Assembly: GCA_017849575.1 (NCBI GenBank)
Contig: JAFIGV010000031.1
Coordinates: 1 to 47,934, forward strand
Direction: 5' to 3'
From: Flavipsychrobacter sp.
GTDB lineage: Bacteria; Bacteroidota; Bacteroidia; Chitinophagales; Chitinophagaceae
DNA: 47,934 nt
The translations under genes were made by a program, and so were the position numbers. Shown one piece after another: positions 1 through 22,323 of the stretch. A model generated the notes under the pieces. It made no database searches and was not told where the DNA came from. It saw only the letters and a list, made by a program, of their open reading frames with translations. Each line of letters opens with the position of its first letter. Positions within the stretch are counted from its first letter, which is position 1.

Positions 1-54
1 GGCTGCTGATGCGAAACCGAGGATGGCTGTTGCTGCGATGATGATCTTTTTCAT
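1..54 (-). CDS. Exported protein, N-terminal fragment (runs off window)
   Basis: Only the first 18 codons are present; the gene reads leftward out of the window. They encode a lysine-led hydrophobic stretch starting MKKII and ending FASAA, the pattern of a Sec signal peptide, so the product is probably exported. Nothing shows what the mature protein is. The start lies behind an A/C-rich leader of about 45 nt and a promoter with paired GTTAAC boxes, the same architecture found before the two micro-proteins near 20.7 and 21.1 kb, so it may belong to their regulon. Confidence 0.6.
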   Translation of the reverse strand, partial: MKKIIIAATAILGFASAA

Positions 55-100: not shown

Positions 101-172
101 CAAAGATGAAACCGTGCACAAGGCTGTGCAAACAAAGCGAGCTCGTTAACGCAGCCTTTACAGGCGGTTAAC
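101..172 (-). promoter_or_regulatory. GTTAAC-box promoter, copy 3
   Basis: On the minus strand, GTTAAC at 172-167 is followed 22 bp later by GTTAAC at 150-145. A -33 TTTG lies at 132-129, and a -7 CATCTTTG at 108-101 after a 20-bp spacer. The proximal GTTAAC begins exactly 46 bp before the TTTG of the -7 box, as in the two copies at 20.6 and 21.05 kb. It drives the truncated exported gene. The long spacer and the CA in place of TA at the -7 suggest a weak core promoter needing an activator (inference). Confidence 0.65.
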
Positions 173-255
173 AAACGCACAACAAAGCATGAGGGGAAAA
201 CAGCAGCAGCTTAGTGCTAACTATGACACGAGAAAAGAGGCCGAACAACACCGAT

Positions 256-20557: not shown

Positions 20558-20590
20558 GAGGCATGTAAAACTTTTTGATCCTAATGCCTC
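20558..20590. repeat. Inverted repeat next to the first GTTAAC box
   Basis: GAGGCAT (20558-20564) and ATGCCTC (20584-20590) are perfect inverted arms around 19 bases containing a T-run; the right arm ends at the base before the first GTTAAC. It may form a weak transcript end for the glycosyltransferase operon or be part of the regulatory region. Confidence 0.35.
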
Positions 20591-20684
20591 GTTAACCGGT
20601 TTTAAAATGATCGTTAACCGGATACAAAGCCAACGTTAACCCTTCTGTTATTTTTCCTGTAGCTTCTGGCTCGCTGCACCTTTG
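20591..20684 (+). promoter_or_regulatory. GTTAAC-box promoter, copy 1 (three boxes)
   Basis: GTTAACC occurs at 20591, 20613 and 20635, a strict 22-bp period. A -33-like TTTC lies at 20653-20656 and the -7 CACCTTTG at 20677-20684 with a 20-bp spacer. The last box begins 46 bp before the TTTG of the -7, identical to copies 2 and 3. The leader to the micro-protein ATG is about 35 nt and A/C-rich. Confidence 0.7.
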
Positions 20685-20725
20685 TGTTGTCAATCAGTAA
20701 CGCAAAAGACTAAAAACAAACAATA

Positions 20726-20857
20726 ATGAAAACGCAAGCCTTACATATCGCCGCCTTCAAAAGCCACTACGCGTTTAGCATGAAATCAGATGTGGCACTC
20801 AAGGTGATTCTCTTCGTAGCCATACTCTGCTGCATCAACATTATCGGTCTGATGTAA
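20726..20857 (+). CDS. Membrane micro-protein, 43 aa (paralogue 1)
   Basis: Not a known family. The 43 residues consist of a polar N-terminal part with two histidines and one C-terminal hydrophobic helix (from VALKVILFVAIL), so it is probably a single-pass membrane protein. Over the last 25 residues, 13 are identical to the 40-aa protein encoded 300 bases downstream, including S-x-VALKV, AIL and CIN. Conservation of both the protein and the specialised promoter between the two copies is good evidence that this short frame is translated. It follows the glycosyltransferase operon but has its own promoter. Confidence 0.75.
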   Translation: MKTQALHIAAFKSHYAFSMKSDVALKVILFVAILCCINIIGLM

Positions 20858-21046
20858 AAGATATCCTCGCCGCTTATTACCGGGCGGTATCGAAGGAGCA
20901 GACTGCAACCCAGGGTATTCGGTTTTGCCGGTCAGTTTCCTCTTCAGCCCTCTGCTGCATGACCGGATCTTCGGCATACCATTTCAGCCTTTGCTTCGCC
21001 AAAAAACACCGCTGCACCATCTTCATTTCTGTTCTGTAAACTGTTC
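20858..21046. other. Intergenic stretch between the two micro-protein genes
   Basis: No gene or clear hairpin is seen here. An 86-codon plus-strand frame that opens near 20925 has no homology I can recognise and runs across the second promoter, so I treat it as chance. Confidence 0.5.
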
Positions 21047-21118
21047 GTTAACTGGTTTTAAAAGGGTCGTTAAGCCATTGCATTTCTTTGCCAGAAGCAA
21101 CGCATCACAACATCTTTG
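21047..21118 (+). promoter_or_regulatory. GTTAAC-box promoter, copy 2 (two boxes)
   Basis: GTTAAC at 21047 and GTTAAG at 21069 are 22 bp apart. -33 TTTG at 21087-21090, 20-bp spacer, -7 CATCTTTG at 21111-21118. The distance from the proximal box to the -7 TTTG is 46 bp, as in the other two copies. The sequence between the boxes (GGTTTTAAAA) is also shared with copy 1. Confidence 0.7.
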
Positions 21119-21153
21119 TGTCCTTCAAACAAAAAGAAAAAAAAGCAACGACC

Positions 21154-21276
21154 ATGACCGCGCTCTCTTTATCCCACAAACCTGACTTATCGCTCACCCT
21201 CAGTTCTGAGGTTGCCCTCAAGGTGTTGCTTTATGCAGCCATATTGACCTGCATCAACCTGTTAGCCTTTCTGTAG
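21154..21276 (+). CDS. Membrane micro-protein, 40 aa (paralogue 2)
   Basis: A 40-residue paralogue of the protein at 20726. A short polar, serine-rich N-terminal part is followed by one hydrophobic helix, SEVALKVLLYAAILTCINLL, in line with the SDVALKVILFVAILCCINII of copy 1. The start is set by the promoter and the A-rich leader; an in-frame upstream ATG at 21088 would lie within the promoter. Function unknown; the membrane helix with a conserved lysine at its start and a conserved Cys-Ile-Asn suggests a specific helix partner (inference). Confidence 0.75.
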   Translation: MTALSLSHKPDLSLTLSSEVALKVLLYAAILTCINLLAFL

Positions 21277-21291
21277 TTGGCGACATCCAGC

Positions 21292-22323
21292 TTACCCATT
21301 CTTGAGTAGTCCCTCACAAATATTCTTTGCAATAGCAGGGCCTTCGTAAATAAAACCGGTGTAAACCTGCACCAGTGTCGCGCCGGCTTCTATTTTCTCC
21401 CAGGCGTCTGCTGCCGTGAAAATACCTCCTGCTGCTATGATGGGTATACTTCCGCCGCTACGTTCATGAAGATAACGGATCACTTCGGTAGCGCGATTTT
21501 TCAAAGGTGCACCGCTCAGTCCGCCGGCACCTAAAGCCTCCACCTCGCCCGCGGGTGTGGTCAGCCCCGTTCTATCGATGGTTGTGTTTGTAGCAACGAG
21601 TCCGGCTATGCCAGTACTGCGCACAATTTCAACGATATCGTCAAGTTGTTCGTTCGTAAGGTCTGGTGCAATTTTGAGCAATATCGGCCTGGGAACCGGC
21701 ATGCCCTTGTTTATCTCCTGAAGACTGCCGAGTATCCTGGTCAACGGTTCCTTATCCTGCAGGGCGCGCAAACCGGGCGTATTCGGACTGCTCACGTTCA
21801 CTACAAAATAGTCCACCACTTCATACAACGCCCTAAAGCAGGCAATGTAGTCCGAAAGCGCATCTTCATTTGGGGTGTCTTTATTCTTTCCAATGTTACC
21901 ACCAATGACCAGTCGCTCTTTCCGTGCTTTGAGGCGTGCGGCGGCTGCCGGCGCGCCGTCGTTATTGAAGCCCATTCTGTTAATCAGAGCTTTGTCTGCC
22001 GGCAGGCGAAATAAACGCGGCCGTGGATTGCCGGGTTGAGGCCGGGGCGTTACTGTGCCGATTTCAACAAAACCAAAACCCAGGCATGCAAGCACATCTG
22101 TAAACCGTGCATCTTTATCAAAGCCAGCAGCAAGGCCTACCGGGTTAGGGAACCGGATACCGAACACTTCGCGCTCAAGACGTTCATCACGCCGTGTAAA
22201 AGTGGACTTCATTAGCCGGCGAAGGGGCAGCAGCGAATAAGCATTTTTCATACGGTTCATCACCATATAATGCACTTGTTCGGGGTCGATGCTAAAAAGC
22301 ATCTTTCGAATGAGCTGGTACAT
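21292..22323 (-). CDS. pyrD: Dihydroorotate dehydrogenase (quinone), class 2
   Basis: Oxidises dihydroorotate to orotate in pyrimidine synthesis, passing electrons through FMN to membrane quinone. The 343-residue length and the N-terminal amphipathic extension (residues 1-40, [19 protein letters not shown]) mark the membrane-associated class 2 enzyme. The FMN/substrate segments [12 protein letters not shown] (about 60-71), NRMGFNNDG (115-123), [11 protein letters not shown] (176-186) with the catalytic serine, and the C-terminal phosphate loop around IPIIAAGGI are all present. It is preceded by a good promoter almost touching the ATG. Confidence 0.97.

Follow-up and report, generated by a model that had tools for sequence, protein, structure and literature searches.

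Within a 47,934-nucleotide stretch of DNA from Flavipsychrobacter sp. (here 'the window'; contig C21 of the organism's own genome, G000, which comprises 3.61 Mb in 32 contigs), three promoters carry GTTAA boxes that recur with a period of 22 bp at a set distance from the -7 element. The question that these raise is whether the three are members of a single regulon and, if so, what kind of protein reads the boxes and which genes it serves.

Three promoters in the window

The elements concerned are as follows:

20580..20640, plus strand: operator 1, read from the sequence, with GTTAA boxes at 20591, 20613 and 20635, midway half-sites at 20602 (TTAAA) and 20624 (ACAAA), and an upstream half-site at 20580 (CCTAA)
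20653..20684, plus strand: core promoter 1, read from the sequence, TTTC (20653-20656)-N20-CACCTTTG (20677-20684)
20726..20857, plus strand: micro-protein A1 (family alignment), 43 aa, one hydrophobic stretch (by eye), no Pfam match
21036..21074, plus strand: operator 2, GTAAA at 21036, GTTAA at 21047, TTAAA at 21058 and GTTAA at 21069
21087..21118, plus strand: core promoter 2, read from the sequence, TTTG (21087-21090)-N20-CATCTTTG (21111-21118)
21154..21276, plus strand: micro-protein A2, 40 aa, a tandem paralogue of A1
145..183, minus strand: operator 3, half-sites starting at 183 (GTTGT, degenerate), 172 (GTTAA), 161 (GTAAA) and 150 (GTTAA)
101..132, minus strand: core promoter 3, read from the sequence, TTTG (132-129)-N20-CATCTTTG (108-101)
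1..54, minus strand: 5' end of a gene for a secreted pilin-like protein (MKKIIIAATAILGFASAA..), truncated by the window/contig edge

The original prediction had placed boxes at 20591/20613/20635 and 21047/21069 on the plus strand and at 172/150 on the minus strand, and these positions hold, with a spacing of 22 bp throughout; so too does the distance of 46 bp between the start of the proximal box and the TTTG of the -7 element, which each of the promoters shows (TTTG at 20681 and 21115 on the plus strand and at 104 on the minus strand). The cores were also described correctly, as TTTC/TTTG/TTTG-N20-CAYCTTTG, versus an N19 spacer in both tRNA genes of the window (TTTG-N19-TATTTTTG and TTTG-N19-TATATTTG). 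A promoter sequence model (R1), of which the window promoters themselves form part, matches operator 1 at 20580-20619 and 20621-20693, operator 2 at 21034-21124 and operator 3 at 91-185. The third box of promoter 1 (20591-20640) makes its tandem longer by one 22-bp unit, and comparable three-box arrays are seen in genome G001 (L186) and at C1:43087-43135 of the own genome. The A2 gene converges with a gene at 21292-22323, which we take to resemble dihydroorotate dehydrogenase.

Allowing one mismatch, the window holds eight GTTAA box pairs, against a mean of 3.03 (sd 1.88) in shuffled sequence, with none of 100 shuffles reaching eight; GTTAAC pairs were counted on both strands, in the shuffles likewise.

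A positioned operator with 11-bp half-sites

The scan of the full genome that had been proposed, for GTTAA-N17-GTTAA-N41-TTTG with up to one mismatch, returned 21 places (15 of them exact) against seven for the reversed pattern, and is thus far above its control. Without the core, the box pair alone occurs exactly at 39 places versus 14 reversed, GTTAAC pairs again counting on both strands. In 14 of the 15 exact places a YAAA sits midway between the boxes, although the search did not require it, and this holds for nine of the ten own-genome sites left after removal of near-copies; one step of 11 bp farther upstream, another half-site keeps its AA in seven of these ten, and this upstream half-site is the weakest of the series (NYWAA in five of ten).

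We then define the core-free operator as GTTAA-N7-YAAA-N6-GTTAA, which was sought in eight genomes (seven of the genus, together with G031) and found at 78 sites versus four for the reversed pattern; by genome, G000 to G006 and G031 hold 21, 16, 6, 17, 2, 0, 15 and 1. An off-register control, with YAAA shifted by one base and boxes 21 bp apart, gave no place in the own genome and one in 59 genomes. When operator, core and half-site are all demanded, G000 to G006 retain 14, 9, 5, 6, 0, 0 and 4 places, one place is found in one of 52 genomes beyond the genus, and the reversed control is empty in all 59.

The promoter sequence model was built on 39 promoters from G000 to G003 and used to score the best 150 first-look candidates of each genome: at E <= 1e-4 it finds 21, 18, 22, 21, 1, 0 and 21 matches in G000 to G006, the first four counts not being independent because these genomes contributed to the model, and none among the best 150 candidates of each of nine genomes of other genera. 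At E <= 0.5, again for the best 150 candidates each, the counts are 25, 25, 28, 29, 3, 0 and 26 in the genus, and 0 to 9 in the nine other genomes (best 2.8e-4). G006 made no contribution to the model, though it is close to G003. Sites are few in G004 and absent in G005, these assemblies being 88% and 81% complete, respectively. A wider scan of genome contigs, a set from which near relatives may be missing, gave seven places (two in Bacteroidetes MAGs and five in other phyla), none of them before a recognisable regulon gene, and we judge these to be chance.

The position of the operator is locked to the -7 element. Of 74 core-free sites, 39 have TTTG at +46 and 23 have it at +47, while the remaining distances from 10 to 119 (45-47 excluded) hold a mean of 0.42 and a maximum of 10/77, at +18, in the -33 region. 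In a non-redundant set of 49 sites, taken from the 73 that are fully flanked and sharing <78% identity, TTTG is found at +46 in 29 and at +47 in eight (37/49 together), with every other distance from 8 to 55 holding five or fewer, and TTTG or TTTA at +46 in 33 and at +47 in 11 (44/49 together). Two of the five sites with neither tetranucleotide at 46 or 47 are the outer pair of a three-box array.

A sequence logo was drawn from 43 non-redundant sites, with both boxes, YAAA and TTTG/TTTA required. Its columns free of selection show TTGYWAA from 13 to 7 bp upstream of the distal box (A in 40/43 and 37/43 at the two best positions), TTG ahead of YAAA, a run of T with C/G at the expected -33 position, CATC ahead of TTTG and CATCATCAAA after it. 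Shifted against itself by 11 or 22 bp, the motif shows self-similarity (z of 6.1 and 7.0, respectively; reached by none of 1000 column permutations in either case); a shift of 1 likewise scores 0/1000, and shifts of 12, 23 and 33 are weaker. Because the search demanded both boxes and YAAA, the perfect conservation of GTTAA and YAAA in the logo, and much of the 11/22-bp autocorrelation, are built in; independent of that requirement are the unselected columns and the counts from own-genome sites found without YAAA.

Read in this way, the operator is a tandem of half-sites, GTWAA/GTTAA/GYAAA/GTTAA, in 11-bp steps, of which the first is the loosest; the two boxes 22 bp apart are present just as had been proposed, but the arrangement is finer, with a half-site every 11 bp. 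An excerpt of PMC9723704 places the sigma-A box of Flavobacterium at -12 to -5, and, if TTTG is taken as -8 to -5, the half-sites start at about -87, -76, -65 and -54.

We suggest that an activator would bind head-to-tail along GTWAA-N6-GTTAA-N6-GYAAA-N6-GTTAA, from these four positions and on one face of the DNA, presumably as two tandem dimers, and would contact RNA polymerase at promoters of sigma-A type whose -33 box is weak and, with N20, one base too distant. We infer activation, rather than repression, from the position of the operator and from the poor core. A repressor or a nucleoid protein as the bound species seems to us improbable: repression from a site upstream of -50 can be envisaged, but this operator lies wholly upstream of the core at 46/47 bp, a fixed distance that a repressor site need not hold, and the weak -33 element with its N20 spacer and the non-TA -7 element have the look of dependence on an activator.

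The third promoter of the window, some 20 kb from the other two, had been offered as proof of a regulon rather than a local duplication; taken alone it shows no such thing, because its gene is one of six near-identical copies of a single multicopy family. The wider claim of a regulon is nonetheless strongly supported by the same geometry ahead of unrelated genes elsewhere, by the position lock to the -7 element and by conservation at orthologous genes within the genus. A shared promoter spread by gene duplication, or as a mobile promoter cassette, with no regulator behind it, would suit the multicopy pilin-like genes and their six near-identical promoters near contig ends. Yet the promoters of micro-protein, RNA and pilin-like genes are alike only in the half-sites, the -7 element and the start region, and 49 of the 73 fully flanked sites are kept at <78% identity; we give this explanation very little credence.

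The operator, its 11-bp half-sites, their fixed distance to the -7 element, the conservation of these in the genus and the list of genes downstream can all be read directly from the DNA. We hold it to be highly probable that the promoters are members of one activator-dependent regulon, a confidence that does not extend to the class of the regulator.

Genes and small RNAs behind the operator

Among the genes behind these promoters are several for conserved micro-proteins that lack annotation, and others for a multicopy secreted protein that is pilin-like by predicted fold; two families of small RNA are found there as well. Micro-protein A converges on the same neighbouring gene in four genomes, always behind the operator, and its promoter is kept, as had been anticipated for relatives that retain the protein, in G001, G002, G003 and G006, and with TTTA in G004. 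Three weak matches examined in other genera (L061, L064 and L071; E 0.015 to 0.56) have no box pair and are probably not relatives. For five micro-protein families, pN/pS values of 0.08 to 0.21 were obtained from one species pair.

No Pfam family exceeded its cut-off for the pilin-like protein and three A proteins, nor for protein F and the first 110 aa of protein E, which were run together with a glycosyltransferase and two regulators; likewise, no NCBIfam family did so for the pilin-like protein and micro-proteins A, B, C and D (B, C and D were searched in NCBIfam only, E and F in Pfam only). By eye, the translated downstream genes include no DNA-binding regulator, and autoregulation is therefore not seen.

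The pilin-like protein has a predicted structure consisting of a beta-sandwich with a disordered N-terminus, and structure searches with it return pilins alongside Ig-like and carbohydrate-binding folds, in listings where the absence of a family proves nothing. It shares this predicted architecture with subunits of chaperone-usher and related filaments (CfaB, FimA and the TLP-1 entries 9ikj/9ikk); unlike them, it is without a counterpart by sequence in the PDB, where hmmsearch with 22 pilin-like proteins gave no match at E <= 1, and the likeness is one of predicted fold. The six near-identical gene copies in the own genome all lie within ~370 bp of a contig end: at 1-54 of the window (minus strand) and on contigs C12, C16, C17, C18 and C31. 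Pilin-like 5' ends near contig ends are seen likewise in G002, G003 and G006, and it is therefore probable that long repeated copies interrupt the assemblies; the copies may also undergo gene conversion or switching.

Several operators precede no reading frame at all, but rather a short stretch that ends in a terminator-like hairpin. Two RNA families specific to the genus, here 'alpha' and 'beta', are found in this setting, with the following loci in G000:

C1:375021: alpha/beta locus L196
C9:22437: alpha/beta locus L199
C25:178579: alpha/beta locus L208
C14:119308: alpha/beta locus L244

With up to two mismatches, the alpha motif TCTCCATTCTCTCCTTATATAC occurs as eight copies in five of 59 genomes (G000, G001, G002, G003 and G006; none for the reversed control), six of which also contain GGAAAGAAGATCA; seven of the eight stand behind an operator, and for one of the seven, in G002, the -7 element is broken. 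The beta motif GGATCTTCTTTCTGACTAT gives nine matches at the same tolerance versus one for its reversed control, and the match in G031 looks like chance. Four beta copies, of which G000 has two and G003 and G006 have one apiece, are free RNAs behind an operator; four others begin a few bases past the stop codon of one pilin-like gene each, in G000, G001, G003 and G006.

In four genomes, GAAAGAAGATC of alpha is the exact complement, over 11 nt, of GATCTTCTTTC of beta, a match that was seen by eye and then scored: predicted duplexes reach -17.0 to -21.6 kcal/mol, where shuffled alpha averages -7.7 to -9.6, and 0 to 6 of 500 shuffles are as good. Both alpha copies of G002 lack the complementary stretch and, allowing two mismatches, beta was not found there; since G002 is without both, the halves of the pair appear to be present or absent together. 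We suggest from this complementarity that alpha and beta may pair in the cell.

Together with their terminators, alpha and beta fold better than shuffled sequence (z of -3.1 to -5.6 for five sequences). Four of the 26 pairs in the alpha consensus are changed on both sides, all within the terminator, while in the stem proper two pairs are altered on one side only; consensus folding of beta, whose terminators did not align, gave only a 4-pair hairpin and no covariation. An Rfam search of 11 loci gave no match for alpha or beta, its other matches being a group II intron in L144 and two below gathering scores. Rfp18 of Flavobacterium, as described in an excerpt of PMC9723704, is comparable in being a genus-conserved sRNA linked to genes for secreted proteins; unlike the Rfp18 of that excerpt, alpha and beta form a complementary pair, of which one partner also occurs in a 3'UTR, and are without Rfam match. 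Two further operators, L210 (C30:66345, minus strand) and L185 (G001, C185:18853), precede a short stretch without a clear gene and with terminator-like hairpins, in which AATGGAGA or ATAAGGAGAG is a possible pairing partner for alpha's other invariant stretch.

The class of the regulator

Midway between the boxes lies a half-site of almost equal regularity, and for this reason we lean towards a response regulator of the OmpR/PhoB family over one of LytTR type; we put the former at about an even chance, and accord a distinctly smaller one to a regulator that is neither. The Pho box usually overlaps the -35 element; unlike it, the operator here has up to four half-sites and ends near -50. Its tandem direct repeats in a 10-11 bp register, with the midway half-site in nine of ten non-redundant sites, are a trait of the OmpR/PhoB family, and an excerpt of PMC4832192 describes just such sites, with direct repeats in an 11-bp register, for members including PhoB and PhoP; it also reports that three and four repeats were bound by PhoP better than two. 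Literature searches found no published member of the family with half-site GTNAA in the order of this operator.

Candidate genes can be sought amongst proteins with a Trans_reg_C domain, of which there are eight in the own genome and 6, 7, 7, 3, 3 and 7 in G001 to G006 (G004 and G005 being incomplete); in grouping these by best hit, two of 38 loci gave no protein and three matches had no locus. One group, C23a, has members in all five regulon-rich genomes and was not seen in G004 or G005, both incomplete; the contigs that carry its genes show no listed promoter match at E <= 1e-3. A second, C1:57k, is found in the same five and in G004, and was not seen in the incomplete G005; its distance is ~4 kb to gene B in the own genome, ~10 kb to B and C in both G003 and G006, and ~124 kb in G002, while in G001 it lies on a different contig; it may be a general PhoB-like regulator. 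Distribution links both groups to the regulon weakly, the genomes being few and two of them incomplete. The remaining groups do not follow the regulon in their distribution and were set aside: C8, C18 and C1:52k are present in G005 too, and C10, C11 and C23b occur in two or three genomes only.

As an alternative, a LytTR-domain regulator, in keeping with the original prediction, would place one dimer on the two GTTAA boxes 22 bp apart, with GYAAA providing secondary contacts. The 9-bp LytTR consensus is [TA][AC][CA]GTTN[AG][TG], and the repeats of AgrA contain GTTA cores, which we count in favour. When this consensus is set against our logo, GTT and the A after N agree, and the two bases before GTT mostly do not. 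Direct repeats with a period of 20-23 bp, upstream of the -35/-33 element, are typical of LytTR sites and are what is found here. In an excerpt of PMC6193735, two Bacteroides LytTR operons are predicted to carry 11-bp repeats, 11 bp apart and 11 bp before TGTA/TGTG-19-TATCTTTG; by our own arithmetic on that layout, the period is 22 bp, the repeat starts 49 bp before TTTG and its fourth base lies 46 bp before it, so that the 22-bp period and the 46-bp distance are both reproduced. The AgrA repeats, according to an excerpt of PMC4227749, have their centre at about -60, in promoters whose spacers, at 18 and 20, are over-long. The operator here thus shares its period, its distance to the -7 element and its weak core spacing with the LytTR operators (AgrA; Bacteroides LRS-like) of those two excerpts; it differs from them in the conserved midway half-site at 11 bp, which is nearly as regular as the boxes, and in its flanks, and the Bacteroides repeats are themselves predictions. 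There are nine LytTR matches in the own genome, one of them ~3.5 kb from the micro-protein A promoter on contig C32. A LytTR response regulator at L055 (C28:29465) is spread over two overlapping frames, which points to a disrupted gene or to a sequencing error. On geometry LytTR is a candidate, but with half-sites every 11 bp and flanks mostly unmatched we consider the assignment possible and somewhat doubtful, and continue to favour the OmpR/PhoB family.

Whatever its class, the activator would co-express small membrane proteins, secreted pilin-like surface proteins and two regulatory RNAs, and the regulon would presumably make a surface filament. We speculate, tentatively, that this amounts to a filament programme of the genus, in which one activator would drive pilin-like subunits, micro-membrane proteins that would help to build or regulate the filament, and an alpha/beta 'sponge' loop in which alpha would pair with beta through its invariant 11-nt stretch, with beta supplied both as free RNA and within the 3'UTR of one pilin-like mRNA.

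Literature searches found no published description of this motif, and we regard the regulon as new but familiar in kind; to it belong an RNA pair, which was unexpected, and several families of unannotated micro-proteins. To our knowledge, the operators, regulators and micro-proteins of the Bacteroidota are poorly mapped. Here one promoter signature brings together ~20 promoters per genome and, with them, several conserved micro-protein families that matched nothing in the libraries tried and two RNA families unmatched in Rfam; the distance from operator to -7 element provides a testable rule, and the RNA pair is open to a clean compensatory test.
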